Shown: one piece after another, positions 175 to 24,303 of the stretch | Layout: every line of letters begins with the position of its first letter | Numbering within the stretch: position 1 is the stretch's first letter | Position numbers and translations under genes: made by a program | The notes under the pieces: generated by a model | Database searches by the model: none | What the model was told of the DNA's origin: nothing | The model's input: the letters and a program-made list of their open reading frames with translations, nothing else | From: Deltaproteobacteria bacterium | GTDB taxonomy: Bacteria; Desulfobacterota; DSM-4660; Desulfatiglandales; HGW-15 | NCBI GenBank assembly: GCA_016930835.1 | Contig: JAFGGA010000147.1 | Coordinates: 1-34,651, forward strand | Reading direction: 5' to 3' | Length of the DNA stretch: 34,651 bases

Positions 175-2280
175 ATGATTCCAATTCAAGAAGCAACTTT
201 TTTTATGTTGGGACTCGGTGCTTTTTGCGGACTTGTATTGAGTCTCGCTTCTCGAGTATTTTATGTGTATGAAGACCCTCGAATTGAGATGGTGATGGAT
301 TGTTTTGCGGGCGCCAATTGCGGCGGATGTGGCTACGCCGGTTGTTCGGCCGCCGCTGTCGCCGTCGTAAACGGCAATGCTCCACCGAATGTTTGTATCG
401 TAGCAGGCGCGGAAGCAGGTTTTCAGGTTTCGGAAATTATGGGTGTGGCCGTGGGTATTGCGGAACCCGTCAAAGCTGACAACCCGTGCTTTGGCGGAGA
501 CCGGGCATTAGATCGCTTTATATATTTGGGTATCAACAGTTGCCGGGCTCAGAATATGTTATACGGTGGAAAGCGAGTGTGCGATATCGGATGCCTGGGA
601 CATGGAGATTGCGTTCGAGCCTGTTTGTTTGGGGCATTAAAAATTGGAGACCATGGTTATCCTATCGTGGACAAGGAGAAATGTGTTGGATGCGGCGCTT
701 GTGAGAGAGCCTGCCCCAAAGATATTATCGAGGTCAAGACCCCTTCGGAGCGATTACTCCATTTTAATCAGGCCGATGAATGTCTTGCACCTTGCAGACA
801 GACTTGCCCGGCCGAAATAAACATCCCACTTTATATTGCTCAAATTAGAAAAGGGGACTATGAAGGAGCCGTTCATACCATCCGAGAAAGAAATCCCTTT
901 CTGCTATCCTGCGGCCGTGTCTGCCCACATCCTTGTGAAACAAACTGCCGTCGAGGGATAGAAGATGAACCCGTATCCATTAATCAACTCAAACGTTTTG
1001 TGGCTGATTACGAGATGAACTCGGGTCGTCGTTTTCCTGTTTCCATTGCACCCCTTACACATAAACGAATCGCTATTGTGGGAGGCGGTCCAGCAGGTCT
1101 GAGTTGCGCTTATTTTCTGAGACGTTTGGGGCATGATGTGACGATCTTTGAGGCTATGCCCAAGTTGGGAGGGATGCTCCGCTACGGAATCCCCGAATAT
1201 CGCCTTCCCAAAAAAGTCTTGGATTGGGAGATCGAAGGCATATTAGACCTTGGTATCGAACACCATGTCAATACAACCTTAGGCACGGATTTTGATTTAA
1301 GTTCCCTGGTCGCCGAAGGTTACGAAGCCATTTTTTTAGGCGTGGGCGCTTGGCAAGATACGAAGCTTCGTGTTGAAGGAGAGGAACTAAAAGGTTGTTA
1401 CACCGGCATTGATTTCCTATCACGACTCGCCAACAATGAAACCATCCCCATCGGTCGCATCGCTGCCGTCATTGGAGGTGGAAACACGGCCATTGACTGT
1501 TCCCGTAATCTTCTTCGTTCAGGGGCGGAAAAGGTCTATATCGTATATCGGAGAACCCGTAACGAAATGCCCGCTAATGAAATTGAAATAGAGGCCGCTG
1601 AACATGAAGGGGTTGAACTCCTTTTTCTTTCCGCCCCACTCAGAATAAAAGGTGATGAAGATGGAAGAGTCACACATCTTGAATATCAGAAAATGGAACT
1701 TGGGGAACCCGATGCAAGCGGTAGAAGGCGGCCCGTCCCTGTTGAAGGTTCAGAGACTTTGCTAAAAACGGACATGGTCATCACTGCGATTGGTCAATCA
1801 CCGGATGTCTCTTTCACGGGAAAAACACAGCAACGATTAGAGGAACTCAAGACGACTCGATGGAGCACCATTGATGTTGATCCCAACACGCTTCAATCCA
1901 GTATCTCCTATATCTTCGCAGCTGGAGACGCCGCAACCGGCCCCTCACTGGTCGTGGAGGCTATCGGTGGAGGTCGAAGAGCGGCGAGATCCATCCACCA
2001 ATATATAATGGGGGAGACGGTCAGCGCTGAACCATTGGAGCTTAATAAAAAATTGATTCCCGAGACCTTCTTTGACCATGTGCTTGGTGTGGAGAAAAAG
2101 AACCGAGCTAAGATGGTCGAATTGCCAGTTGACGAGCGAATCAAATCCTTTGTGGAAGTCGATCAGGTCCTGACCGAACCGGCCGCACTGGCGGAAAGTG
2201 AAAGATGCCTTTTCTGCGGTCGACTCTGTTATGACAAGGATTTCGAGGAACCCATTCATGAGGAATCAAAGGCGGCATAA
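175..2280 (+). CDS. RnfB-like / ferredoxin / GltD-like (NfnB-like) fusion oxidoreductase
   Basis: Membrane-associated electron-transfer protein of 701 residues, probably moving electrons between ferredoxin, NAD(P)H and an Rnf-type membrane complex. In order: an N-terminal hydrophobic segment (about 6-30) as in RnfB; the RnfB Fe-S domain with Cys49, 52, 57 and 74 (CGGCGYAGC); a two-cluster ferredoxin domain (Cys136/140/146/150 and Cys170/173/176/180); then a complete glutamate-synthase-small-subunit-like module. That module has an N-terminal cluster region (Cys203, 207, 211, 246, 250, 254, 258), an FAD site GGGPAGL at 303-309, a second dinucleotide site GGGNTAI near 434-440, and the FAD-closing motif AAGDAATGPS near 580. 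A last Cys motif CLFCGRLC lies at 678-685. The ATG at 175 follows an AAGGAGA Shine-Dalgarno sequence. RnfB alone is usually under 300 residues, so this is a fusion. NfnB, the partner of NfnA in NADH/NADPH/ferredoxin bifurcation, is the closest family analogy for the GltD part. Function is inferred from domains. Confidence 0.85.
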   Translation: MIPIQEATFFMLGLGAFCGLVLSLASRVFYVYEDPRIEMVMDCFAGANCGGCGYAGCSAAAVAVVNGNAPPNVCIVAGAEAGFQVSEIMGVAVGIAEPVKADNPCFGGDRALDRFIYLGINSCRAQNMLYGGKRVCDIGCLGHGDCVRACLFGALKIGDHGYPIVDKEKCVGCGACERACPKDIIEVKTPSERLLHFNQADECLAPCRQTCPAEINIPLYIAQIRKGDYEGAVHTIRERNPFLLSCGRVCPHPCETNCRRGIEDEPVSINQLKRFVADYEMNSGRRFPVSIAPLTHKRIAIVGGGPAGLSCAYFLRRLGHDVTIFEAMPKLGGMLRYGIPEYRLPKKVLDWEIEGILDLGIEHHVNTTLGTDFDLSSLVAEGYEAIFLGVGAWQDTKLRVEGEELKGCYTGIDFLSRLANNETIPIGRIAAVIGGGNTAIDCSRNLLRSGAEKVYIVYRRTRNEMPANEIEIEAAEHEGVELLFLSAPLRIKGDEDGRVTHLEYQKMELGEPDASGRRRPVPVEGSETLLKTDMVITAIGQSPDVSFTGKTQQRLEELKTTRWSTIDVDPNTLQSSISYIFAAGDAATGPSLVVEAIGGGRRAARSIHQYIMGETVSAEPLELNKKLIPETFFDHVLGVEKKNRAKMVELPVDERIKSFVEVDQVLTEPAALAESERCLFCGRLCYDKDFEEPIHEESKAA

Positions 2281-2342
2281 AAAAGTGGTATGGAGTGTTT
2301 TGCCCGAGTGTTGAAGTACCGTTAAACTTAAAGAGAAATGAT

Positions 2343-3149
2343 ATGATCGGAGTTTTTGATTCGGGTTATGGCGGGCTGACCATCCTCAGGGCTTTTTTAG
2401 ATAACTTATCTGAGTATGACTATTTTTATCTGGGAGATAGTGCGCGCACACCTTATGGAAACAAATCTCTCAATACCATATATGAATACACTCGACAGGC
2501 GGTTGCATTTCTTTTTAATCAAGGGGCTATACTCATCATCCTCGCTTGCAACACGGCCTCAGCAAAGGCGCTTAGAAGAATTCAACAAGAGTGGTTGCCG
2601 ATACATTATCCGGATAGGCGCGTCTTAGGGGTTGTCATCCCTTTGGCCGAAGCGGCCGTGGAAGCCAGTCGTTATGGCCGGATCGGTGTGATTGGAACGC
2701 GAGCTACCATCGAATCAAGGGTGTACGAACAAGAGCTTCATAAACTGGATGCTGGGCTAAAAATATATAGTCAAGCCTGTCCGTTGTTGGTCCCTCTTGT
2801 AGAAGAAGATTGGGTTGGAAAACCAGAGACCAATATGATCCTGAAGAAATATCTTCACCCCTTAAAAAGCAAAAGAATCGATTCACTCATCCTGGGTTGT
2901 ACACACTATCCGTTTTTAAAAAAGGGCATCACACGAATCATGGGAAAAAACTGCCACGTTATGGATGCACCAAGAATTGTTGCGGAAAAATTAGCCGATT
3001 ATTTAAAACGTCACCCGGAAATCGAACAGAGACTTGAGAAAAAGGGGCGGTATATCTTTGTTACATCCGATGATCCGAAACGGTTTAAGGCCTTCGGGGA
3101 TAAATTTCTCGGTAGACGAATCACCGATGTCCAGAATATATCTTTTTAG
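2343..3149 (+). CDS. murI: Glutamate racemase
   Basis: Cofactor-independent racemase converting L- to D-glutamate for peptidoglycan, cytoplasmic, 268 residues from the chosen start. The N-terminus MIGVFDSGYGGLT carries the conserved Asp6-Ser7. The two catalytic cysteines lie in ACNTAS (Cys69) and GCTHYPF (Cys185). The GDSARTPYG motif is also present. An in-frame GTG at 2295 would add 16 residues, but the family begins right at the IGVFDSG motif, so the ATG at 2343 is preferred; its Shine-Dalgarno sequence (AGAGAAA) is modest. It follows the RnfB fusion by 62 bases and ends 23 bases from the convergent DUF3108 gene. Confidence 0.93.
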   Translation: MIGVFDSGYGGLTILRAFLDNLSEYDYFYLGDSARTPYGNKSLNTIYEYTRQAVAFLFNQGAILIILACNTASAKALRRIQQEWLPIHYPDRRVLGVVIPLAEAAVEASRYGRIGVIGTRATIESRVYEQELHKLDAGLKIYSQACPLLVPLVEEDWVGKPETNMILKKYLHPLKSKRIDSLILGCTHYPFLKKGITRIMGKNCHVMDAPRIVAEKLADYLKRHPEIEQRLEKKGRYIFVTSDDPKRFKAFGDKFLGRRITDVQNISF

Positions 3150-3172
3150 TCTCAAGATATTGAAGAGCCATT

Positions 3173-3952
3173 TTAATAATGTGAACCCATTTCATAGGAA
3201 ACCAATTCCGCAATAAAGCTGCCTACTTTAACCCCGCTCTTGATTTTAACGGGCATTTGTCTAGCATCTGCCGTAACCCAGATAAGGAGTTTGGCGTTTT
3301 CGCTCTTTTTAAAGATTCCATTGATTGAACCCATCTCTGGCTCCACGAGATATGTATCAAAGATGCCGCCGGGAACCTGAACCGGCTCCCTCTTTATGAC
3401 TTTAGCGTTACTGATAAGACATCTTTGTCCATCTGTAACAGGTATCTGGATGACAATATTTTCCTTTAACTGATGGGCGCGGAAGGCATAAAAAATCGAA
3501 AGCGGATCGAATGATCCGGGTTGGATGGGTATAGGCTCTTCACTCTTTCCGAAGTTTGAATATCGGGCCCATCCTTTTTCGCAATCCATATCAACAACGA
3601 TCTTATTTTTCAAATGGCCATGCTGTTCCTTCATATACAAAAAAGAATGGGTCATACTGATGTCCGTGTAGGAATCAACCCTATCGCGAATTTGATAAAA
3701 GAAATCCACGAATTCCGTTGTCCTGGCAGACATGACAAAATGATAAGCTTGGACACCTTCGATGGATTCAGTAGGGAGAATTTCCAGGACAACATCCCCC
3801 GCGTGGATAAAGGCCCACCTGACTTTAAAAACAAGTCTTTCTTTTGAATGGAAAGGGCTATGGATATCAGAAGCCCAAGAAGTGGTCTCTATTAAAAGGC
3901 CAATCAAAAGAAAAAAGGCTTTTAATAAAATGCTTCCCTTGAATCTCAGCAT
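3173..3952 (-). CDS. DUF3108-type envelope protein of unknown function
   Basis: A 259-residue protein with an N-terminal signal sequence (basic MLRFKGS, hydrophobic stretch about 8-25, likely cleavage after TSWAS). The mature part has the features of DUF3108 proteins: an early ERLVFKVRW strand, FYQIRDRVDSY, a GSFDPLSIFYAFR segment, and a late LLIWVTADARQMPVKI stretch followed by GSFIAEL. Such proteins are exported, probably beta-rich, and have no settled function. It lies 70 bases upstream (on its own strand, downstream) of the cytochrome gene and may share its transcript. There is no clear Shine-Dalgarno sequence at the ATG at 3952. Confidence 0.75.
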   Translation of the reverse strand: MLRFKGSILLKAFFLLIGLLIETTSWASDIHSPFHSKERLVFKVRWAFIHAGDVVLEILPTESIEGVQAYHFVMSARTTEFVDFFYQIRDRVDSYTDISMTHSFLYMKEQHGHLKNKIVVDMDCEKGWARYSNFGKSEEPIPIQPGSFDPLSIFYAFRAHQLKENIVIQIPVTDGQRCLISNAKVIKREPVQVPGGIFDTYLVEPEMGSINGIFKKSENAKLLIWVTADARQMPVKIKSGVKVGSFIAELVSYEMGSHY

Positions 3953-4022
3953 TTCATAGGGACTCGCACAGGTTAGAATTCTTTAAATGCGTGGCCTCAT
4001 TTGTAATCAAAAAAAGAAAAGA

Positions 4023-4469
4023 CTAATCTCCGGTTTCCTCATGGCATGTCGTACACTTTCGGTAGGCTAAAGGATCCTCGGTCTGCAATATCTTTCTCTC
4101 AGTATGGCATATTTTGCAATTCAAATGGTAGGCAGTCTGGAGTTTCACGATATCACCATCCGCTTCACTGGGATCATGACAGGCAATACATTTTTCCGTT
4201 TCATCCCATGGTGACCAAACATTGGCTTTATCATCATAATTATGATGGCACTCCCAGCAGAGGACCTTGTAATCCAAGGCGTGTTTTCTATGTGGAAAAA
4301 CAACCGGCCCTTTACGGTCTTTTTCGTAATCGGGATTGTTAATTGTAATGGTATCCAAATCTTGAGGATCAACATCCTCTTGACCCGAAGCAATATATAT
4401 CTCACCGATCACAAATAGACAGATGATGAATATAACGGTCGGAATTCGCCATCTCTTATAGGTCTGCAT
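4023..4469 (-). CDS. Membrane-anchored tetraheme class III-type cytochrome c
   Basis: Periplasmic electron carrier of 148 residues. A basic N-terminus and one hydrophobic segment (about 9-28) act as signal or anchor. Four CxxCH heme sites follow: CWECH (71-75), CIACH (94-98), CKICH (118-122) and CTTCH (139-143). An early FPHRKH motif (His60 and His63) supplies axial ligands as in cytochrome c3 and c7. Classical tetraheme c3 has two CxxxxCH sites; here all four are CxxCH, so this is a relative rather than TpI-c3. The start at 4469 is preferred over an ATG 14 codons upstream because GGAGGGG precedes it closely. It lies 89 bases downstream of tRNA-Lys on the same strand. Its likely role is donor or acceptor for periplasmic redox complexes such as Qrc, which is inference. 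Confidence 0.88.
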   Translation of the reverse strand: MQTYKRWRIPTVIFIICLFVIGEIYIASGQEDVDPQDLDTITINNPDYEKDRKGPVVFPHRKHALDYKVLCWECHHNYDDKANVWSPWDETEKCIACHDPSEADGDIVKLQTAYHLNCKICHTERKILQTEDPLAYRKCTTCHEETGD

Positions 4470-4558
4470 TTTCCCCTCCATAGACGTATTAAGATTCATG
4501 CACAAAACCAATCGAATGGTATACTTATAAAAAAGAAAATCCCAAGTTCTTAATTAGT

Positions 4559-4634
4559 TGGTGGGCCTGGAAGGGCTCGAACCTTCGGCCAATTGATTAA
4601 GAGTCAACTGCTCTGCCAACTGAGCTACAGGCCC
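4559..4634 (-). tRNA. tRNA-Lys (anticodon CTT)
   Basis: A 76-nt cloverleaf on the minus strand. The acceptor stem is GGGCCTG paired with CAGGCCC, the D-arm GCTC/GAGC, the anticodon loop CTCTTAA (anticodon CTT, reading AAG), and the T-loop TTCGAGC. The 3' CCA is encoded. It is 28 bases downstream of tRNA-Arg and probably cotranscribed with it. Confidence 0.95.
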
Positions 4635-4662
4635 TCATTAATTATTGCTTCGATCCCTAGAG

Positions 4663-4736
4663 CGCGCCCGGCAGGATTCGAACCTGCGACCTACGGGTTC
4701 GAAGCCCGGCGCTCTATCCATCTGAGCTACGGGCGC
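4663..4736 (-). tRNA. tRNA-Arg (anticodon TCG)
   Basis: A 74-nt cloverleaf on the minus strand. The acceptor stem is GCGCCCG paired with CGGGCGC, discriminator G, D-arm GCTC/GAGC, anticodon loop CTTCGAA (anticodon TCG, reading CGA), and T-arm GCAGG-TTCGAAT-CCTGC. No CCA is encoded. The outermost anticodon-stem pair looks mismatched (C opposite U), which is minor. Confidence 0.93.
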
Positions 4737-4750
4737 GTAGAACGTAAGTA

Positions 4751-4779
4751 TCTCTAGCAAGTCTGCAAAAAGATGTCAA
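4751..4779 (-). promoter_or_regulatory. Probable sigma-70 promoter of the tRNA-Arg/tRNA-Lys unit
   Basis: On the minus strand there is a perfect -35 (TTGACA, 4779-4774), a 17-base spacer and a weak -10 (TAGAGA, 4756-4751). It lies just before the 5' end of tRNA-Arg at 4736. The -35 and spacing are good; the -10 matches at only three positions. Confidence 0.45.
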
Positions 4780-4856
4780 TCCCTCAATTCTGATTTCAGA
4801 ATCTTTAAAAATGATTTTACAGGCTTTATAAATAAATGAAGACACCATTGTGTAAT

Positions 4857-8468
<3,612 letters not shown>

Positions 8469-8628
8469 TCTTTTTATAGTAATAATGAAATCCAGGTAGG
8501 ATCTGATATTATTCGTGGACAACCAGGTTCTAGAGTATTGACAGGATTATGTTCCATGCAAACTATCATTATGGATTAGAATAGAGGACGAATAATCTTT
8601 TTTTGCTACTCTTTCATTATCTGGGTTG

Positions 8629-9294
8629 TTATTTTATCAAATGAAAAATCCTTTTCCAGTTAGGCCAGGAAGACCAATAAATGATAAGCGCTTTCCCTTT
8701 AATCTTGCGAGTTGAAACAAAACCCCAGCTTCTGCTGTCTAGGCTGTTATCACGATTGTCTCCCATCGCAAAAACAGCGTTTGCAGGCACCGTGATCGGC
8801 CCAAAATGTTCTTGCTTTTGATCCTGCCCCAATATATAGTGTTCAACGCCGTACAAAAATTCAACATATCTGTTTTTGATCTCATTGGTTTCGTGATCTC
8901 GATATTTATCGAAATATTTCTCCTGAATTTGCTCTCCGTTTATATAAAGAAAACCTTTTTTTATCTCAATTTCATCTCCTTCAGTTCCTATAATGCGTTT
9001 TATATAGTCTTTTTTTTCATCTTTCGGAAATTTAAATACTATAATATCGCCTTTACTTGGCGTATTAAACTTTAGAATGTATTTATCAATAAATGGGATT
9101 TTGACACCATAGATAAATTTATTCACCAACAGATGATCCCCAATGAGTAAAGTCGGCTTCATAGAACCTGACGGAATTTTAAAGGCCTGGACCACAAACG
9201 TTCTAATGAAAAGGGCAAGGAGAATAGCAATAACCGCCGCTTCCGCATATTCTCTGGCAGTACTTTTTCTGATGATTTTATCATTATGATCCAT
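8629..9294 (-). CDS. lepB: Signal peptidase I
   Basis: Membrane-bound serine protease that removes signal peptides from exported proteins; 221 residues. A single N-terminal transmembrane segment (about 18-36) is followed by the catalytic serine box IPSGSMKPT (Ser44) and the general-base lysine in DYIKRIIG (Lys99). The conserved C-terminal box MGDNRDNSLDSR is present. A strong AGGAGGGG lies upstream. Two starts are possible: this ATG, about 15 bases from the AGGAGG core, or an in-frame TTG at 9306 that sits very close to it. It is about 245 bases from nifJ and probably separately transcribed. Confidence 0.94.
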   Translation of the reverse strand: MDHNDKIIRKSTAREYAEAAVIAILLALFIRTFVVQAFKIPSGSMKPTLLIGDHLLVNKFIYGVKIPFIDKYILKFNTPSKGDIIVFKFPKDEKKDYIKRIIGTEGDEIEIKKGFLYINGEQIQEKYFDKYRDHETNEIKNRYVEFLYGVEHYILGQDQKQEHFGPITVPANAVFAMGDNRDNSLDSRSWGFVSTRKIKGKALIIYWSSWPNWKRIFHLIK

Positions 9295-9570
9295 AATGTT
9301 AATCAAACCCCTCCTGGTATTTTTCTTGCAGCAAATTGATGGTCATCTTCGCACGGAAAACTGGATTGGTTCTTTTATAAAAAATGGCCTATTATTAGAA
9401 CCATGCTGTAACCTGCAAACAAACACGATCTATTAATATAGGGGATTACGAGGTGTAAAGCAATTTGAAAGGTATGTACCAATAAAGATTATTTCTGATT
9501 AACACCTAAAGGTTAGTCGCTCTTTTCAATTTGTGGACCTAAAAAACACAGATCACAATGGTTTAGTATT

Positions 9571-9600
9571 AATTTGCACATACAATATGTAGTGCTAATT
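9571..9600. repeat. Inverted repeat upstream of the pil promoter
   Basis: Arms AATTTGCAC (9571-9579) and GTGCTAATT (9592-9600) are complementary at eight of nine positions. The 12-base centre is itself partly self-complementary (TACA...TGTA). It lies about 65 bases upstream of the -35 box, where an activator or repressor site would be plausible. Confidence 0.45.
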
Positions 9601-9663
9601 TATAATATTATATACGATATATATAGAAATTATGTTAATTTTGGTTAATTTATGAAAAAATAC

Positions 9664-9691
9664 TTGACAAATTATACCATATATATATGAT
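9664..9691 (+). promoter_or_regulatory. Strong sigma-70 promoter of the XRE-pilMNOPQ unit
   Basis: Perfect TTGACA (9664-9669), a 16-base spacer and TATGAT (9686-9691, five of six). The -10 region lies in an alternating AT tract. The next gene starts at 9746, giving a leader of roughly 48 bases. Confidence 0.7.
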
Positions 9692-9745
9692 ATTTATCCG
9701 TCCGATGAGAAATGCTTGTGTTAACTAAAAGAGTCGGAGGATAAA

Positions 9746-9946
9746 TTGGGGAACAATATCGTAAAAGACATCAGAGAGGAATTGTTGATGAGTAAGGCCG
9801 AACTGGCCCGAAAAGCAGGGGTTTCGTCATTAACCATTGACAGGATTGAAAAAGGCAAGAGTTGTCGGATGGAAACAAAAAGGAAAATAATCCTAGCTCT
9901 TGGATATGATTTGTCCGAAAAAAACAAAGTATTTCTGGATGATTAA
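9746..9946 (+). CDS. Small XRE-family helix-turn-helix regulator
   Basis: A 66-residue protein that is essentially one Cro/C1-type DNA-binding domain: IREELLMSKAELARKAGVS, then SLTIDRIEKG (recognition-helix region), then a third helix pair ending near ILALGYDL. The start codon is TTG at 9746, chosen because GGAGG (9736-9740) sits exactly five bases before it; the first in-frame ATG would cut away the first helix. It ends 11 bases before pilM, so it is the first gene of the pil transcription unit. Autoregulation and control of pilus genes are inference from position. There is no ligand-binding domain. Confidence 0.85.
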   Translation: MGNNIVKDIREELLMSKAELARKAGVSSLTIDRIEKGKSCRMETKRKIILALGYDLSEKNKVFLDD

Positions 9947-9957
9947 GAAGGTTGTAT

Positions 9958-11046
9958 ATGCCTGTTCCCAAAAAAAATAAATTAGTTGGATTGGATATCG
10001 GTTCCCATTCAATTAAGTTGGTTGAAATCGATGATACCAAAAAGGGAATGGTCCTGAAAAATTTTGGGATCATCGGGTTGCCAAAGGATGCCGTTGTTGA
10101 AGGAACGGTTCGAGAGATGGAGGTCGTGGCATCCGCCTTAAAAAACCTCTACAAGAATCTAAAGATCAAAAATAAAAATGTTGCGATCGCCATATCGGGT
10201 TTTTCAGTCATCGTTAAAAAAATCAATATCGCCAAACGTGAAGAAGCAGAGCTTGAGGCCAGTATCCATGATGAGGCGGAACAATATATTCCCTTTGATA
10301 TCAGCGATGTCAACCTTGATTATGAAATCCTTTCAGGTAAGGAAGAAATCTCGGAAATCAGGGATGGAGAGGAAAGCGATGAAGAGAGCGTGATGGATGT
10401 GATGCTTGTCGCAGCAAAAAAAGATATTATTGAAGAATATGTCAGTCTGATCCACTTGGCGGGACTTAACCCCGTATTAGTCGATGTGGATGCTTTTGCA
10501 GTTCAAAATGCTTTTGAAATGAGCATGAAAGATGTATCAGGATGCTATGCACTTGTCAATATTGGTGCGGAAGAACTGGGAATAAATGCCGTCAAAGACG
10601 GCGTATCCATATTTACAAGGGATTCTGCTTACGGGGGATCTCAGATTACCGAAGCCATTATGTCCGAATTTGATGTTTCTTTTGAAGAAGCGGAAAATAT
10701 TAAGTTAGGTGGCGCGAAGGTTGATGATAAAAAAGAAGTATTGGAGGAGATCTTTACGACGGTGGTCTCTGGATGGGTGCAAGAAATAAAACGGGCCCTT
10801 GATTTTCTTTCAACAACCTATCCAGATGAATCTATTGAAAAAATTATCTTAAGCGGGGGGGCATGCAGGTTGCCCGGGTTTAAAAAATTCCTTCAGATGG
10901 AAACAGATATTCCAGTGATGGAATTAAAACCATTTGCTGATTTGCAGATTAATGAAAAGGTATTTGATCCGAGATACCTGAGCTATATGGCTCCGCAGGC
11001 CGCGGTTGCCGTCGGCCTGGCATTAAGGAGCATTGACGACAAATGA
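9958..11046 (+). CDS. pilM: Type IV pilus inner-membrane platform ATPase-fold protein PilM
   Basis: Actin/FtsA-fold cytoplasmic protein of 362 residues that binds the N-terminal tail of PilN and anchors the alignment complex. The first nucleotide-binding motif is LVGLDIGSHSIKLVEI near residue 9. There is a later ALVNIGAEELGINAV segment, and IILSGGACRLPGF is the adenosine-site motif. The ATG at 9958 has AGAAGG six bases upstream; a TTG two codons earlier is less likely. The stop codon overlaps the pilN start as ATGA. Confidence 0.94.
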   Translation: MPVPKKNKLVGLDIGSHSIKLVEIDDTKKGMVLKNFGIIGLPKDAVVEGTVREMEVVASALKNLYKNLKIKNKNVAIAISGFSVIVKKINIAKREEAELEASIHDEAEQYIPFDISDVNLDYEILSGKEEISEIRDGEESDEESVMDVMLVAAKKDIIEEYVSLIHLAGLNPVLVDVDAFAVQNAFEMSMKDVSGCYALVNIGAEELGINAVKDGVSIFTRDSAYGGSQITEAIMSEFDVSFEEAENIKLGGAKVDDKKEVLEEIFTTVVSGWVQEIKRALDFLSTTYPDESIEKIILSGGACRLPGFKKFLQMETDIPVMELKPFADLQINEKVFDPRYLSYMAPQAAVAVGLALRSIDDK

Positions 11047-11648
11047 TACGAATCAATCTATTACCCTTTCGGGCAGCCAGAAAAAGAGAGAATATCAGAA
11101 AGCAAGTCACGGTTTCTGCCTTGATCGTCGTATTCTTTATCTTATTAATGGTATATTTTTTCATACAAATCAGCGGCGATTTGTCTACCGTCAAGGAACA
11201 AGAAAATGAAAAAAGACAGGAGCTGGCAACCTATCAAAAGACCCTTAATGAAATCAAAAAACTAGAAAAGCAAATCAAAGAGATTGAGACAAAGCTGAAC
11301 GTTATTCGGGAACTTGAAAAGGGAAAAACCGGACCGGTCAAACTCCTTGATGAGATTGCAGAGGCCGTACCAAGAGACAAGCTATGGCTCAAGACATTAG
11401 ATGAAAACCAAGGCACTTTAAGGATGACAGGAACCGCCATGGATAATGAGACAGTGGCTTTGTTTATGGACAACCTGAAGAATTCTGAGCATATCATTTC
11501 CGTGGAACTCCAAGGCGTCACCTTGAGGGATTTACCTGAGTATCGCTTGAAGGTCTCAGATTTTGGTCTGGATTGCAAGACTTACGCCCATGCGGATCAA
11601 AAAGCAGCGGAACCGGCAAAAACAGCAGCCCCTAAGAAAAGGCGTTAA
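11043..11648 (+). CDS. pilN: Type IV pilus assembly protein PilN
   Basis: A bitopic inner-membrane protein of 201 residues. The N-terminal MIRINLLPFR is the conserved PilM-binding motif. A single transmembrane segment (about 23-43) follows, then a coiled-coil-prone stretch (about 50-95, rich in Glu, Lys and Leu) and a periplasmic ferredoxin-like fold. The C-terminus is Lys/Ala-rich. It overlaps pilM by 4 bases, indicating translational coupling. Confidence 0.92.
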   Translation: MIRINLLPFRAARKRENIRKQVTVSALIVVFFILLMVYFFIQISGDLSTVKEQENEKRQELATYQKTLNEIKKLEKQIKEIETKLNVIRELEKGKTGPVKLLDEIAEAVPRDKLWLKTLDENQGTLRMTGTAMDNETVALFMDNLKNSEHIISVELQGVTLRDLPEYRLKVSDFGLDCKTYAHADQKAAEPAKTAAPKKRR

Positions 11649-11675
11649 CCCTCTGATATAAGGATTAGTCAGGTC

Positions 11676-12251
11676 ATGGCAGGCGAAAATTTTTTTGATA
11701 AAGTTGAAAAGATCAAGATGCCGGTGCGAATCGCGATTGTCTCTGGCACACTTGTCCTTTTAGCCGGCTTATTTGTTTGGTTTGTATGGTTACCCAAGAC
11801 GGAAGAAATAAAGAAAACAAAACAAGAGATTGAAAACCTTGAACGCCAAATCACGCAGGCCAGGATAAAGGCCAAAGATTACGAAAAACTGAACCAAACA
11901 AAGGCGAAGGTGGACAATCAATTCCAAGAAGCTCTCTTACTCTTACCTAACGAAAAAGAAATTCCGAGTCTTTTAAGGAAGCTCACCGAATTAGGGGCTG
12001 AAGCCCAATTAGACGTGCGATCCATTCAACCTCAAAGTGAACGACCGAAAGAATTTTATCTGGAGATCCCCATAGCCATTGAGGTCAGAGGGGAATACCA
12101 TAATGTGGCGGTCTTCTTTGATAAGGTAGGTCACATGGAAAGGATTATGAACATCCATAATGTATCCATGAGGCCCATCTCAGAGCGTTCAACCACACTT
12201 ATTACCAGGTGCAGTGCCGTGACCTATCGATTTAAAGGTGGAACTGAGTGA
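11676..12251 (+). CDS. pilO: Type IV pilus assembly protein PilO
   Basis: A 191-residue partner of PilN. It has a short cytoplasmic tail, one transmembrane helix (about 17-37, ending LVLLAGLFVWFVWLP), a coiled coil (about 40-80) and a periplasmic domain containing the family's LPNEKEIPSLLRKLTELG and EVRGEYHNVAVFFDKV segments. It starts 27 bases after pilN with a weak Shine-Dalgarno sequence. Its stop codon overlaps the pilP start. Confidence 0.93.
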   Translation: MAGENFFDKVEKIKMPVRIAIVSGTLVLLAGLFVWFVWLPKTEEIKKTKQEIENLERQITQARIKAKDYEKLNQTKAKVDNQFQEALLLLPNEKEIPSLLRKLTELGAEAQLDVRSIQPQSERPKEFYLEIPIAIEVRGEYHNVAVFFDKVGHMERIMNIHNVSMRPISERSTTLITRCSAVTYRFKGGTE

Positions 12252-12787
12252 TGCAGCGGGTGAAAAAAAATATGAGGCCCCAAGGTGTTTTATTTATTAT
12301 CGCTTTGATATGGCTTATTTCCAATCCGACTTTCGGAGCTCAAGATGTGGTGTATAAGGAACCAAAACCATTAAAAGAAGTAACCGCTGAAGCACCACCG
12401 ACGGAAACCGGAAATACGGGTGAAAAAAAGACGGAAACTGAAGACGATTACATCTATGATCCCACTGGCAAAACAGACCCTTTTAAATCTTTTATTACCA
12501 TTCGAGAAGAACAACAGGAAAAGAAGAAAGAAAAACCAAAAACATATTTGGAAACCCTGGAGTTATCCCAACTAAATCTCATCATGATCACCATAGGTAA
12601 GAAGGGAAAATGGGCGATGGTGCGTGATTCAAAAGGAGACGGTTACGTGATCAAGGAAGGGACGGCCATAGGGACCAACGGTGGGGTCGTCTACAAAATT
12701 GCCCAAGGAGAGGTGATTATCCGGGAAGAATATACGGATTTCCGAGGCCAAAAACAATACAGGGATATAACCAAAAAGACGCAATAA
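12251..12787 (+). CDS. pilP: Type IV pilus assembly protein PilP
   Basis: Periplasmic protein of about 178 residues linking PilN/PilO to the secretin. It has a signal sequence (hydrophobic VLFIIALIWLIS, about 13-24), an acidic linker, then the PilP core: the family signature YDPTGKTDPFKSF, LETLELSQLNLI and a beta domain ending in QYRDITKK. The ATG at 12251 follows AGGTGG; a GTG one codon upstream is equally in frame. There is no cysteine at the signal-peptide end, whereas well-studied PilP proteins are lipoproteins. Confidence 0.88.
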   Translation: MQRVKKNMRPQGVLFIIALIWLISNPTFGAQDVVYKEPKPLKEVTAEAPPTETGNTGEKKTETEDDYIYDPTGKTDPFKSFITIREEQQEKKKEKPKTYLETLELSQLNLIMITIGKKGKWAMVRDSKGDGYVIKEGTAIGTNGGVVYKIAQGEVIIREEYTDFRGQKQYRDITKKTQ

Positions 12788-18859: not shown

Positions 18860-20098
18860 CTATATGCCAACGGTATTTAATTCCGTTTCTTTTGGAAAAA
18901 GCGGTAGATATCGATATGAAAGGGAAAACAACAACATTCCATAACCAACGACCGCCATGGAAAGGCCCCATTCCTGCCAAGTGGGGAGATAGCTCCAAAA
19001 CTTATCAAAAGGCATTACCGGAATGGCGAGATTGACCACGATAAACATGAATCGATTAAGAACAATCCCCGTGCAAGTCATTAAACAGGCCGCAATGAGC
19101 CATCCACTGTGTTGCCTGGTCTTTGGAATCAACAAGATGATCATGGGAATGATTCCCAAAATGATGATCTCGAATACGAGCAGCCATAACCCATAAGGAC
19201 CTTCACGAAAGAAATCCATGAATTGTTGTCCAGCCTTTGGAACCACACCATAGATCCAGCCCAGGGTATCGGCGATCTTTAAAACCATATACAAGGCCAG
19301 CAACCAACCTGATATCTTGGCAAGTAATTGTATGGCACTTGAGGGTACAAGCTTTTTTCTGGTAATGGCCTCCGTTAATTTGGTGCAAAGAATAGTAAAG
19401 CAAGGTCCTGCCGCGATGGCGGACAAGATAAACAGAAAAAAGGTCCAAGGCCAGACATAGAAACCCGCCCTGGCTGCGAAAGGCCTGGCATACATCACGC
19501 CGTACATCCCTCCCAACGAACCTTGGTGAAAAAATGAAAGGAAAACGCCTGTTGCGGCGAAAAGGGCCATAATATGATGCAGGTTATGACCGAATAGACG
19601 AAATTCCTTGATCTCACTCAGTTTTCGATTTTCAAGAATGATCGGTAGATACTCGATAGCCAATACACCCATATAACAAGTGATACAGAAAGAAACCTCC
19701 ACCAACATCGAATGGATATTAGCATGCCAGAATATAAACCAACTCCTCACGGGCTGTCCGAGATCAAACGCCAGCATACCCATGGCCCCCGTATAACAAA
19801 TAAACCCAATAACAACGGCGGCGTTAATAATGTTTTTGAGTTCTTTTTTTCCAATAATGTATGTTAAAAAACCGGTAAAGAATGCACCCGCACCCAAAGC
19901 GATGATAGCCAGATCAAAGACGATCCATAGGGCGAAGGCGAAGATATTACTCATGTTGGTCTGATTCAGGCCTAAACCAAGGCAGAGAATCGCGGAGATA
20001 CCACCCCATGCAAGAAGGGCAAGCCAGGGTACTGTCCAAAGGAAAAAGGATGTGGGTGAACACCTTTTTACACCATCCGGTATCAATGCGGAATCCAT
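18860..20098 (-). CDS. qrcD: Menaquinone reductase integral membrane subunit QrcD (NrfD family)
   Basis: Polytopic inner-membrane protein of 412 residues with about ten hydrophobic helices, PsrC/NrfD family. It holds the quinone site and passes electrons from the Fe-S subunit into the menaquinone pool. Recognisable segments are AMGMLAFDLGQPVRSWF, the HHIMALFAATGVFLSFFHQGSLGG loop pair and IVLNRFMFIVVNLAIP. It contains no cofactor-binding cysteine motif, as expected. GAGGAGG lies eight bases before the start. It is 42 bases downstream of qrcC. Confidence 0.9.
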   Translation of the reverse strand: MDSALIPDGVKRCSPTSFFLWTVPWLALLAWGGISAILCLGLGLNQTNMSNIFAFALWIVFDLAIIALGAGAFFTGFLTYIIGKKELKNIINAAVVIGFICYTGAMGMLAFDLGQPVRSWFIFWHANIHSMLVEVSFCITCYMGVLAIEYLPIILENRKLSEIKEFRLFGHNLHHIMALFAATGVFLSFFHQGSLGGMYGVMYARPFAARAGFYVWPWTFFLFILSAIAAGPCFTILCTKLTEAITRKKLVPSSAIQLLAKISGWLLALYMVLKIADTLGWIYGVVPKAGQQFMDFFREGPYGLWLLVFEIIILGIIPMIILLIPKTRQHSGWLIAACLMTCTGIVLNRFMFIVVNLAIPVMPFDKFWSYLPTWQEWGLSMAVVGYGMLLFSLSYRYLPLFPKETELNTVGI

Positions 20099-20140
20099 CT
20101 CATTAGCCTCCTCATAGTAATCCTGAAATACTTATATTGC

Positions 20141-20962
20141 TTAGCGTGAGCCTACCGCAGCCGTGCTGATAGGCTTAAATTCTCCGGGCAGATAATTATC
20201 CGCCATCTCCCGCACCCAATCCTTTTTGGAGATATAATAGACTTTGGGTTTGGTATTCAACCTTTCCAATAACCTAAAGGCATAAGGGCTCTTGATCAAT
20301 TGTGAAACCTTGTGATTCGGATTATTGAGGTCCCCGAAAGTAATGGCTTGGACGGGACAGGCCTCTGCACAGGCCGTGATATATTCACTTTCTTCAATCT
20401 CCCTTCGACCTTCTGCATAGGCCTTGTTTTTGGCCCGCATCAAACGGTGGTGACAAAAGGTGCATTTTTCCACCACACCCCTTGTGCGAACTGAAACCTC
20501 CGGAGACAGAGAACGTTCCATGCCCTTGGGAAATGGCTGAATAAGTTTATATCCGTCCCACCAATTAAAATACCGGGCATGATAAGGGCAAGCGGCTTGG
20601 CAATAACGGCAGCCCACGCAACGAGTATAGATCTGACTCACTATCCCGGTATTGAAATCGAGTCGCGTGGCCGTTGCCACACAAACGGTAACGCATGGGG
20701 AGGTGTGGTGACCATGTCCATCTTCATCACAATGCATGCACGGTCGGGGGAAATAGCTTACCTCTGTGTGTGGAAAAGCCTTGCCGTTGGTGATCTTATA
20801 AAGTTGCATCCACGTGATACTTCGTTGCTTGTCGGATTCATCGCTTCGAACCGTGACATTATTCTCCGCAGCACAAGCCACCATGCATGTGCCGCAGCCG
20901 GTGCATTTATCAATATCAATGACCATCCCAAATCGATGTCCGTGGGCCAGATTATTTTCCAT
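20141..20962 (-). CDS. qrcC: Menaquinone reductase iron-sulfur subunit QrcC
   Basis: Periplasm-facing ferredoxin-type subunit of 273 residues relaying electrons between the cytochrome/molybdopterin-like subunits and QrcD. It has four cluster motif groups: CTGCGTCMVAC near 20-30, CMHCDEDG...CVTVC, CVGCRYCQAACP, and CTFCHHRL paired with CAEACPVQA. There is no signal peptide of its own, as is usual for subunits exported with a Tat partner. The ATG at 20962 follows GAGGG; an in-frame GTG four codons earlier is less likely. It is preceded by 109 bases without a gene after qrcB. Confidence 0.9.
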   Translation of the reverse strand: MENNLAHGHRFGMVIDIDKCTGCGTCMVACAAENNVTVRSDESDKQRSITWMQLYKITNGKAFPHTEVSYFPRPCMHCDEDGHGHHTSPCVTVCVATATRLDFNTGIVSQIYTRCVGCRYCQAACPYHARYFNWWDGYKLIQPFPKGMERSLSPEVSVRTRGVVEKCTFCHHRLMRAKNKAYAEGRREIEESEYITACAEACPVQAITFGDLNNPNHKVSQLIKSPYAFRLLERLNTKPKVYYISKKDWVREMADNYLPGEFKPISTAAVGSR

Positions 20963-21071
20963 GATTTCCCTCACAGCAGTATAAGCAATATTGTCATTAG
21001 CATTTATTCATCCCGCATAAAAAGACTATGAAGAACCTGAGGAATGTTTAATAAAATTGCTGGACGATTTT

Positions 21072-23570
21072 TTATATTTTAGTCAGTTTTACCGGCGTAC
21101 TCCACCATATAGAATAACCGCTTAGAGGATCTCGCCCTCCTGCGATAATCCGGTTTGGATTAACGCCTTTTCCCCGCAAAAAATCGTCATAGGCCGTGTG
21201 CCCGAAACCCAACGGCATATAGACAATGCCCGGCATGGCCCCTTCAAAAAGATTCACACGAACCTGAACCTCTCCCCTAGATGATCCCACCACAACACGA
21301 TCCCCTTGCCCTAAATGATAATCGGCGGCGGTCCTGGGATTGATCTCAATAAACGACTCATCTCCAAAAAGCTGATTATCGAAAAGGGTTTTATTAAGAT
21401 AAGGCGGATTCGGATAAGGACCACTGGAAAGATTGATCATCTCATAGGGCACCATTTTTAAAGGATAATGCCCATGATCTTCTTCGGAAACAAGGGATTC
21501 AAAATGGGGCATGAACGCATCATCACCCTTTGCATGAATTCCCATGCTCATTAAAACCGTTTCTTTGTCCTGTTGTCGAGAGGCCTCATCGACAGCAAGA
21601 TCAATCTGCATGCTGAAAAACTCGAATTTCCCTGTAGGTGTTTTAAAAATCCCACCCCAATTTCCATATCGGTGCGCAGGGCGATACCATAGATTACCGG
21701 ATATCATCTTCTTCCACATCTCATCAAATGACTTGTAATCAGGGGTGAAGTTTCCGCCTTCACTTATCCGGGACCATGCCTCCGGTCCATTATATTCCGT
21801 AAGACCCGATGAATGATCAAACAAACCTTTTGCCCGGACCTGTAAAACCTCTTCATAGTTTTTCCATGGGAAAGCTTTTCCCACGGTATCACCCATTTGG
21901 GCCGCTAATCGGATGATGATATCCCCCGTGTTCCGGGTGTCATATAGGGGGTTCACGACTGGTTTGGTGATACCATAAAGGGGATACTGGAGACCAATCG
22001 GCCAAACCACGTCATCCATCTTTTCAAGATAATGGTGATCAGGCAAAACCAGATCCGCCATATAAGCGGTCTCATCATGATAGGGTGAAAAACTCACAAC
22101 AAAAGGTATCTTTTGAAGTGCCTTATTGAATGCACCTCCATCCGGCATGGTATAAGCTGGATTCGATGAAAAACAAAGAAGCGTGTCCACGGGTGATTTT
22201 TCAGCGCTTATGACGGCATCCGAAAAATTTTCGATCAAGCTCTGGCTGAAGGGATGGGCGGAACCGCCGATCTGATCCACACGAGGCGTTTTAAGCCCGG
22301 CCGCTGCAACGGCATCCGGCTCTAATTGAGGTAAAAGACCTAAAGGGAGTGGATCATGAAGAAATATCCCACCGGGTGTATTTAGGTTTCCCACCAAGGC
22401 GTTGAGCGCATGGATGGCCATACACTCGAATACGCTTCCGGGTAAAAACCCTTTGCCCCGTCCGCAAAGGGCAATAGGTGCTCTGGCTCGGCCAAAAAGA
22501 TCGGCAAGGCGGCCGATCTCCGCGGCATCTATGCCGGTTATCTCGGCCACCTTTTCGGGAGAATATTTCTCCAGGACCAAACGCCTAAATCCGGCTCGAT
22601 CTTTGCCATCGGAGGTGATCCAATCAGAAAAACCAAAGGCAAATCGATCCACAAATTCGGAATGATACAACTTTTCTCGAATGAGAATATGGGCGATGCC
22701 CAAGGCCAGCGCTGCTTCTGTGCCAGGCTTTACCGGGATCCACTGATCGGCTTTGGAGGCCGTGTTGGAGGCCCTTGACTCAATCTGTACAATCGTGATC
22801 TTTTTCTGTGCAGCATTTTCCTTCCAGATCTTCCAGGCATTTAGAACCCTCCCCGGGGACCCCCATCCCTCGATCAGCCCGCTGCCGAAGCTGAGAATGA
22901 AATCAGCGTTCTCCAGGTCATATGCCATAGGGCCATCGTTTCCGGTCATTAGCATATTCGCCATAGAGTAAGTGTCTTCAGATGTAGGGATGCGCATATA
23001 ATTGGGACTTCCAACGGCATTCATGAAGCGTTCTATTAAAACGGACATGGTGGATCGGCCGGGATTTCCATCGATAGAAGCAAGGGCGGCTGGTTGTCCG
23101 GCCTGTCTGAGGCCTTTGATCCTGTCGACTAGGATCGCCATGGCTTCCTCCCAAGATATGGAAACAAATTTCCCCGCCCCTCTGGCACCCACACGTTTCA
23201 TAGGACTTGTAAAGCGGATCTGCTCATTGTAAAGTAATTGCAATCCTCCCATCCCCAAAGGACACATCCCTCCAGGATTAACCGGAAAATCAGTGCGACC
23301 TTCAATCTTGACGGCCCGGTGATCCACTTTCCGGACTTCAATTCCGCATCCGCCCGGACATAATTTACAGATAGTTTTTTCGTGAACATATTCGCCCTCG
23401 GGGGGAACAGGCACCCATGGCCAATTTTGTGTCCAAATAGCGGTATCATCCGCCAATTTCCAAGGAATGGGGGACAAGCCGGTTCCCACGGCCCCGCCTA
23501 GGATTAATTTTACGAAATTTCTTCTGTTTAGTGCCAAAAGTTCGGTAATATCTTTTCCATTGAATTTCAT
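21072..23570 (-). CDS. qrcB: Menaquinone reductase molybdopterin-oxidoreductase-like subunit QrcB
   Basis: A 832-residue protein of the complex iron-sulfur molybdoenzyme family. The N-terminus has a Tat signal (NRRNFVKLILGGAVGTG, Arg16-Arg17). A [4Fe-4S] site follows: Cys68, 71, 75 and 103 (CKLCPGGC...CPLG). After Cys103 the next cysteine is only near residue 365, so the usual Mo-ligating cysteine is absent. This fits reports that characterised QrcB lacks molybdenum. The start at 23570 is preferred over one 28 codons upstream because that earlier start would overlap qrcA and bury the Tat motif. It begins 13 bases after qrcA stops. Confidence 0.92.
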   Translation of the reverse strand: MKFNGKDITELLALNRRNFVKLILGGAVGTGLSPIPWKLADDTAIWTQNWPWVPVPPEGEYVHEKTICKLCPGGCGIEVRKVDHRAVKIEGRTDFPVNPGGMCPLGMGGLQLLYNEQIRFTSPMKRVGARGAGKFVSISWEEAMAILVDRIKGLRQAGQPAALASIDGNPGRSTMSVLIERFMNAVGSPNYMRIPTSEDTYSMANMLMTGNDGPMAYDLENADFILSFGSGLIEGWGSPGRVLNAWKIWKENAAQKKITIVQIESRASNTASKADQWIPVKPGTEAALALGIAHILIREKLYHSEFVDRFAFGFSDWITSDGKDRAGFRRLVLEKYSPEKVAEITGIDAAEIGRLADLFGRARAPIALCGRGKGFLPGSVFECMAIHALNALVGNLNTPGGIFLHDPLPLGLLPQLEPDAVAAAGLKTPRVDQIGGSAHPFSQSLIENFSDAVISAEKSPVDTLLCFSSNPAYTMPDGGAFNKALQKIPFVVSFSPYHDETAYMADLVLPDHHYLEKMDDVVWPIGLQYPLYGITKPVVNPLYDTRNTGDIIIRLAAQMGDTVGKAFPWKNYEEVLQVRAKGLFDHSSGLTEYNGPEAWSRISEGGNFTPDYKSFDEMWKKMISGNLWYRPAHRYGNWGGIFKTPTGKFEFFSMQIDLAVDEASRQQDKETVLMSMGIHAKGDDAFMPHFESLVSEEDHGHYPLKMVPYEMINLSSGPYPNPPYLNKTLFDNQLFGDESFIEINPRTAADYHLGQGDRVVVGSSRGEVQVRVNLFEGAMPGIVYMPLGFGHTAYDDFLRGKGVNPNRIIAGGRDPLSGYSIWWSTPVKLTKI

Positions 23571-23583
23571 GTTCTCATTCCCC

Positions 23584-24303
23584 TTATTTGTGGCAAACAA
23601 AACAGGCGTTGTTTTCTTCATGGCCTTTTTGGGTATGACATTCCGCACAATCATCCATCTTCATACGATCCCACGTGTTGGATTTAAGGCCCAAGATATT
23701 CTTGCCCCATATATTAATGCTATAACCGGTTATTCTATTTTTTTGAAAAGGCGGTAGTTCCAATGTCTTCCCATGATCTCCATGGCACACTTGGCAATCC
23801 AGCTCCCCTTTTTGGACATGTGCAATGTGGGAAAAATAAACGCAGTCCGGTTGTCGTGAATATAAGAGCCAGGGCACTTCTTTTTCCTGGGCAACATACT
23901 CTGTCATGAACTGTTGTTCAGCTTGTGTCTCACCTAATGGTGAGTCCGGATCATCGTGGCACTCCATGCATAATTCCAACTTAGGGATCCCTGCAAATGT
24001 CCCGTCATCACGAAATGAATGACAATATAAACACTTTTCAGCCTCCGTATCACCTTCAATACCATCGGCAATATCCGAATCCATATGAAGGGCATGATTA
24101 AAGGAAATAGGTTGTGGCTGCTTTGAATATAGGGCAAAGGGGAAAAGAATCCAACCGATAAAGAGTGCCGGAATCAGACCTGCGGCAAAATAGGCCAAAC
24201 CACTCTGTAAAGGATTTGATATCAACCTTGCATAATAAGATAAGACAAGGCCGATCAATAAATCTATGACGAATTTGAGAGAGGAACGTCTAGGTTTTTC
24301 CAT
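23584..24303 (-). CDS. qrcA: Menaquinone reductase multiheme cytochrome c subunit QrcA
   Basis: Membrane-anchored periplasmic cytochrome of 239 residues that accepts electrons from periplasmic c3-type cytochromes. An N-terminal hydrophobic region (about 12-58) includes a clear transmembrane helix (FAAGLIPALFIGWILFPFAL). Five CxxCH heme sites follow: CLYCH (91), CMECH (112), CQVCH (170), CAECH (219) and CFVCH (234). Axial histidines are available in ISFNHALH and VYFSHIAH. Characterised QrcA is described as hexaheme; here a lone Cys154 in DCVYFSH is the only other candidate. It is the first gene of the qrc operon. Confidence 0.9.
   Translation of the reverse strand: MEKPRRSSLKFVIDLLIGLVLSYYARLISNPLQSGLAYFAAGLIPALFIGWILFPFALYSKQPQPISFNHALHMDSDIADGIEGDTEAEKCLYCHSFRDDGTFAGIPKLELCMECHDDPDSPLGETQAEQQFMTEYVAQEKEVPWLLYSRQPDCVYFSHIAHVQKGELDCQVCHGDHGKTLELPPFQKNRITGYSINIWGKNILGLKSNTWDRMKMDDCAECHTQKGHEENNACFVCHK

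Follow-up and report, generated by a model that had tools for sequence, protein, structure and literature searches.

Rnf complexes of a distinct type have been described in Desulfobacula toluolica Tol2 and Desulfococcus multivorans, where the RnfB subunit is about 700 amino acids long and has NAD-binding sites besides its cluster and ferredoxin domains; the RnfC of this type is without NADH and SLBB domains, and its mode of action was said to await verification (PMC5109826). In D. multivorans, five of the six subunits of this complex (Rnf2) were detected in membranes under all substrates tested (PMC5109826), and Rnf2 has been assigned to the core genome of the Desulfobacteraceae, in which it is formed abundantly and constitutively and is given a position between the pools of NADH and ferredoxin (PMC11887813). 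The Desulfobacteraceae rank among the main oxidisers of carbon in marine sediments; the literature found contains no measured activity of any Rnf2. A search of the literature for the wording ‘RnfB-NfnB fusion’ returned nothing, the type having been published as ‘large RnfB’ or Rnf2. That NADH can enter on the RnfB-equivalent side is known from Na+-NQR, in which NqrF has taken the place of RnfB (PMC12174285).

The stretch of DNA analysed here (the window) is a whole contig of 34,651 bases, from a genome of 4.7 Mb in 224 contigs with an estimated contamination of 3.8%. Its first gene (positions 175-2280, forward strand) is an uninterrupted open reading frame of 701 amino acids that starts with ATG and is preceded by a ribosome-binding-like AAGGAG at 164-169, five bases before the start codon. 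Domain matches (Pfam and NCBIfam), relatives and structure alignments identify the product as a large RnfB of the Rnf2 type, with a GltD/StnC-like FAD/NAD(P)H module fused on, and it shares 66% identity with the D. multivorans Rnf2 RnfB (the species' rnf loci lie at 3.10 and 3.11 Mb). The architecture is therefore not new but that of the Tol2-type or Rnf2 large RnfB, which is functionally uncharacterised (PMC5109826, PMC11887813), and the window protein shares with it the length of about 700 residues and the combination of RnfB clusters, ferredoxin and nucleotide-binding flavoprotein in one chain. The reading that we favour, to which we would give a probability of roughly 60% on the basis of sequence comparison, is that this RnfB feeds electrons from NAD(P)H into the Rnf core; that the gene, which appears to lie apart from the rnf operon, serves RnfCDGEA in trans is held with less confidence.

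The protein begins with a membrane anchor (residues 4-28, positions 184-258), a predicted helix within which the single hydrophobic N-terminal segment (residues 7-25) has a mean Kyte-Doolittle hydropathy of 2.04. It is followed by the RnfB 4Fe-4S domain PF04060 (residues 46-75, positions 310-399), whose four cysteines (C49, C52, C57 and C74) are invariant among 108 sequences, and by a two-cluster ferredoxin domain (residues 136-186, positions 580-732; Fer4 match at 139-186) with cysteines 136, 140, 146, 150, 170, 173, 176 and 180, all eight of which are conserved across the 108 full or partial sequences. Next come an Fe-S domain of the GltD/DPD type (Fer4_20, PF14691; residues 188-283, positions 736-1023), in which cysteines 207, 211, 250, 254 and 258 are invariant and cysteine 246 nearly so in the same set, and a two-Rossmann FAD/NAD(P)H module (Pyr_redox_2, PF07992; residues 298-600, positions 1066-1974) that is also recognised from the predicted model and from structural relatives. 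Within the module, the alignment places the NADP(H)-site motifs GGGNTAIDC and YIVYRRTRNEMPAN at residues 432-468 (positions 1468-1578), intact across the clade of the window protein. Close to the C-terminus, the conserved motif CLFCGRLC (C678, C681 and C685; positions 2206-2229), whose three cysteines recur in almost all aligned sequences, may hold a further cluster.

The original prediction described this chain as a triple fusion of RnfB, a ferredoxin and an NfnB/GltD-like flavoprotein. Its list of domains was correct; the count of parts was not, because the ferredoxin domain is a regular component of RnfB, and the fusion is thus one of two parts. Specifically, residues 11-193, ferredoxin domain included, align with RnfB of Clostridium tetanomorphum (7zc6_B) and with subunit B of a Na+-Rnf (9eri_B), and these canonical proteins share with the window protein the membrane helix, the PF04060 cluster and the two-cluster ferredoxin, whereas they have no FAD/NAD(P)H module, the NADH/FMN site being carried by canonical RnfC. 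NCBIfam models divide the chain in the same place, with RnfB models covering residues about 1-213 and GltD-like models 190-690. The whole-protein RnfB cut-offs were missed (177.2 against 252 bits, and 55.5 against 68.7 bits), as expected for a fusion of which these models cover no more than the N-terminal third; such a cut-off is an annotation threshold and not a biological feature, and the assignment to RnfB rests on other features. In the predicted model the RnfB half is of low confidence (mean pLDDT 66.5), too weak for cluster distances to be read from it.

When the same architecture was sought across genomes, as had been suggested with the original prediction, at least 80 Desulfobacterota genomes proved to carry the fusion intact, some of them closed (e.g. 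Desulfonema magnum and Desulfosarcina alkanivorans). More specifically, a scan of bacterial genomes found 202 loci, of which 80 were kept as full-length relatives (residues about 1-690, 64-77% identity). Full-length relatives in so many assemblies and in closed genomes rule out an assembly error that joined two genes. Two further candidates were rejected. The in-frame stops of some relatives (one TGA in G039/G040) do not indicate selenocysteine, as the reading frames merely end there and the terminal stop had been read through; and an apparent pair of unfused RnfB and GltD at another locus (L159) turned out to be an Nqr locus, its 367-residue protein reading as NqrF-like. That locus (its positions 462-10267) holds an Nqr-like operon in which a GltD-like protein, encoded separately, and subunits of a 2-oxoacid:ferredoxin oxidoreductase come after the NqrF-like protein.

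The partner subunit RnfC differs correspondingly between the two kinds of operon. The motif NG.xCEP is absent from all 59 RnfC proteins checked from operons with a fused RnfB (including one, L045, that has a GGAG match) and present in all four from operons with a short RnfB, and in an alignment with the Rnf1 and Rnf2 RnfC proteins of D. multivorans both lost segments are visible. The RnfC of the genome under study likewise keeps both 4Fe-4S motifs, has no NG.ECEP motif and matches PF01512 only below threshold; in being without the NADH/FMN domain, the RnfC of the only Rnf operon of this genome resembles that of described Rnf2 complexes. Since RnfC has lost the FMN/NADH motif in fused-type operons and kept it in those with short RnfB, the NAD(P)H site has moved from RnfC to RnfB. 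The suggestion that the fusion puts an NAD(P)H step on the Rnf path in place of RnfC is well supported by comparison, with the module on RnfB and the RnfC site missing in every fused-type operon checked; an Nfn-like function, as one way of taking that suggestion, is disfavoured by the lysine at residue 273 (see below). The arrangement would parallel NqrF of Na+-NQR in that NAD(P)H enters at the RnfB-equivalent side of the pump (PMC12174285), although NqrF uses an unrelated FNR-type module and a 2Fe-2S ferredoxin. A HydB-like NuoF gene lies upstream of the Rnf2 operon at four loci (L154, L156, L161 and L188) and is a candidate NADH module for an RnfC that lost its own.

In contrast to the described Rnf2 systems, the window gene appears to lie outside the rnf operon. 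Only 174 bases of the contig lie upstream of it, in which there is no rnf remnant, and there are no rnf genes in the 32 kb downstream. The sole rnfD of the genome is on another contig (C151), in a cyc-rnfCDGEA operon that has a fused rnfB of its own, cut short by the end of the contig; the apparent C-terminal part of this second fusion opens a further contig (C134; 62% identity to residues 294-683 of a relative, L136) and has rseC behind it in the opposite orientation, an order shared with relatives. A single Rnf2 core with two large RnfBs is therefore the most likely complement of this genome. The closed genome G040 is like it in this respect, with a single rnfD and a pair of fused RnfB genes at a distance of 2.3 Mb from each other. 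Across the 108 fused proteins, rnf genes lie upstream in 72 cases and downstream in ten, and the available DNA has none in 26 (in some because a contig ends); where linked, the fusion is either the last gene of cyc-rnfCDGEA or sits just upstream of it. In the tree, the window protein groups with unlinked copies and with ten copies just upstream of cyc-rnfCDGEA, a grouping of weak support (SH-aLRT 83).

The two copies belong to different clades, and these differ in their nucleotide sites. The clade of the window protein keeps its FAD and NADP motifs, with Y458-N468 and GGGN intact in 43 of 43 sequences. The clade of this genome's operon copy has lost YRRTR-EMPA (YRRxR-EMPA), and GD..TGPS has become GE..SDYKA or similar, while the Fe-S ligands and K273 are kept; the genome's own operon RnfB is of this decayed kind, its YRRxR-EMPA and GD motifs being gone. 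A third group of fused RnfBs has VCLE instead of VYRR. The best evidence for service in trans comes from two genomes of the same family and a sister genus (G067 and G068), whose Rnf2 operon is without rnfB. Their genes with a PF04060 domain are a canonical RnfB of 271 amino acids in a separate Rnf1 operon, a 576-residue frame elsewhere and an unlinked fused gene; the unlinked fusion is the only RnfB candidate for Rnf2. Both cases probably go back to a single evolutionary event within one genus. The window gene would encode an RnfB that is competent for NAD(P)H and works in trans with the only RnfCDGEA set of the genome, beside an operon RnfB with decayed nucleotide sites, and it is this coexistence of an unlinked, site-intact copy with a site-decayed operon copy that appears to be new. 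A wider proposal, which we hold to be less likely than not, is that one Rnf2 core can take two exchangeable large RnfBs, so that the choice of RnfB would set the cytoplasmic donor of the pump, and that the decayed fusion is paired with a bifurcating module of the HydBC/StnAB type at loci without rnf genes.

As to chemistry, the solved structures that come closest to residues 190-690 are GltD-like chains, namely those of NfnABC (9bov and 9n5u), StnC (8oh5), NfnB/NfnL (4ylf and 5jca), GltD and DPD. StnC, NfnB, GltD and DPD use NADP(H). In StnC, K170 ligates the FAD-proximal cluster and the flavin is non-bifurcating, whereas bifurcating NfnB has a glutamate at this place (PMC10482914). The window protein aligns with StnC here, its K273 (codon 991-993) corresponding to K170 and its R343 to R239; all 108 sequences carry the lysine, and the arginine is invariant or nearly so. 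StnC (8oh5_C) is thus alike in its GltD-like NADPH/FAD module and lysine ligand, although it is itself without membrane anchor or RnfB domain and has StnAB partners and a NuoG-like domain, of which Pfam finds none in the 701-residue protein. Because the ligand is lysine and not glutamate, a linear path from NADPH through FAD and the Fe-S clusters into Rnf is favoured over bifurcation of the Nfn type. Hydride would be exchanged between NADPH (less likely NADH) and the FAD of the large RnfB, and single electrons would pass from the clusters of the module, by way of the RnfB ferredoxin domain, into the ion-translocating RnfA/E-G-D core. RnfC, which has lost its NADH site, would use its two 4Fe-4S clusters to exchange electrons with some other partner. 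This reading leads to testable predictions, namely NADPH and not NADH as the nucleotide, linear and not bifurcating transfer, no nucleotide site on RnfC and, in some genomes, a pair of RnfBs that are not equivalent.

Several other explanations can be weighed against this one. A bifurcating NfnB held on the membrane, coupling NADPH, ferredoxin and a second acceptor, would account for the overall fold and for both nucleotide sites, which resemble those of NfnB/NfnL (4ylf_B and 5jca_L; these also share the FAD and NADPH sites and two 4Fe-4S clusters), and the RnfB ferredoxin domain adjoins the module as such a scheme would have it. NfnB/NfnL is nevertheless soluble and works with a partner, NfnA, of which no counterpart is seen among the reading frames of the window, and its glutamate at the proximal cluster is matched by lysine in every one of the sequences compared; we regard this explanation as improbable. 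A linear, one-electron path is the preferred fit, with the proviso that the lysine could be specific to the group or subfamily-wide. Somewhat easier to entertain, though still unlikely, is that the large RnfB is linked to NAD(H) and that Rnf2 remains a ferredoxin:NAD+ pump with its NAD site shifted to RnfB. The literature points this way in placing Rnf2 between the NADH and ferredoxin pools (PMC11887813) and in speaking of NAD+-binding sites (PMC5109826), and in a distant clade (L131-L134) an acidic residue stands where the arginine pair would be. Against it, the clade of the window protein keeps YRRTR, and YRRT is common to NADPH-binding StnC. NADP(H) is preferred because YRRTR-EMPA is complete and StnC has most of it too, and the motifs and relatives together make NADPH the inferred nucleotide, with NADH less likely.

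The fused protein may also act away from Rnf altogether, as a membrane-anchored NADPH oxidoreductase with a partner such as a NuoE-NuoF pair of the HydBC/StnAB type. Loci without rnf genes do carry a related fused clade: in D. multivorans (L176, positions 6832-12349) and at L197 the order is NuoE-NuoF-fusion-RseC, and at L195 it is NuoF-fusion, without RseC or NuoE. The NuoF proteins of such fused-RnfB loci are closest to StnB and to HydB of bifurcating hydrogenases, and the GltD module is itself of the StnC type. These loci possibly encode a membrane-anchored Stn-like complex; in a search of the literature for a link between NuoF and large RnfB, only the Stn paper was found. These rnf-less copies are nonetheless of the other clade, with degenerate nucleotide motifs, NuoE and NuoF are absent from the window (the NuoEF-like genes of this genome being elsewhere), and in G067 and G068 the unlinked copy of the window clade is the only candidate RnfB of Rnf2, all of which makes independence from Rnf doubtful for the gene studied here. 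Least probable is a redundant duplicate, or an artefact of assembly or binning, without any role. Two fused RnfBs for one RnfCDGEA, the estimated contamination of the genome and the repeat in which the contig ends might suggest as much, but all cysteine, FAD and NADP motifs are intact, the two-copy state recurs in the closed genome G040 and in others, and the protein is full-length in many independent assemblies.

As regards the surroundings of the gene, the downstream neighbour is murI (glutamate racemase; 2341-3149, forward strand, read from an open frame that starts with MIGVFDSGYGG at 2341), which is probably unrelated to it; murI is also found downstream of the rnfB-less Rnf2 operon (L152 and L162). 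One or two cyclic-nucleotide-binding-like proteins, absent from the window, adjoin the fused gene at eight other loci (L141, L142, L143, L148, L025, L026, L038 and L069). Near the fused gene, on the opposite strand, are a class III cytochrome c (4023-4511) and a pyruvate:ferredoxin oxidoreductase (4857-8429), and farther along the same strand (18860-24303) the reading frames suggest an NrfD-type membrane protein, a 4Fe-4S protein, a molybdopterin oxidoreductase and a multihaem cytochrome. Positions 1-88, at the contig end, are a dispersed repeat with about 40 near-identical copies in the genome (93-100% identity), many of them at contig ends; several have a second, inverted copy nearby (76-80%), resembling a hairpin or MITE, and one reading frame of the repeat occurs within a formylglycine-enzyme-like protein at another locus (L022, 3519-4742).
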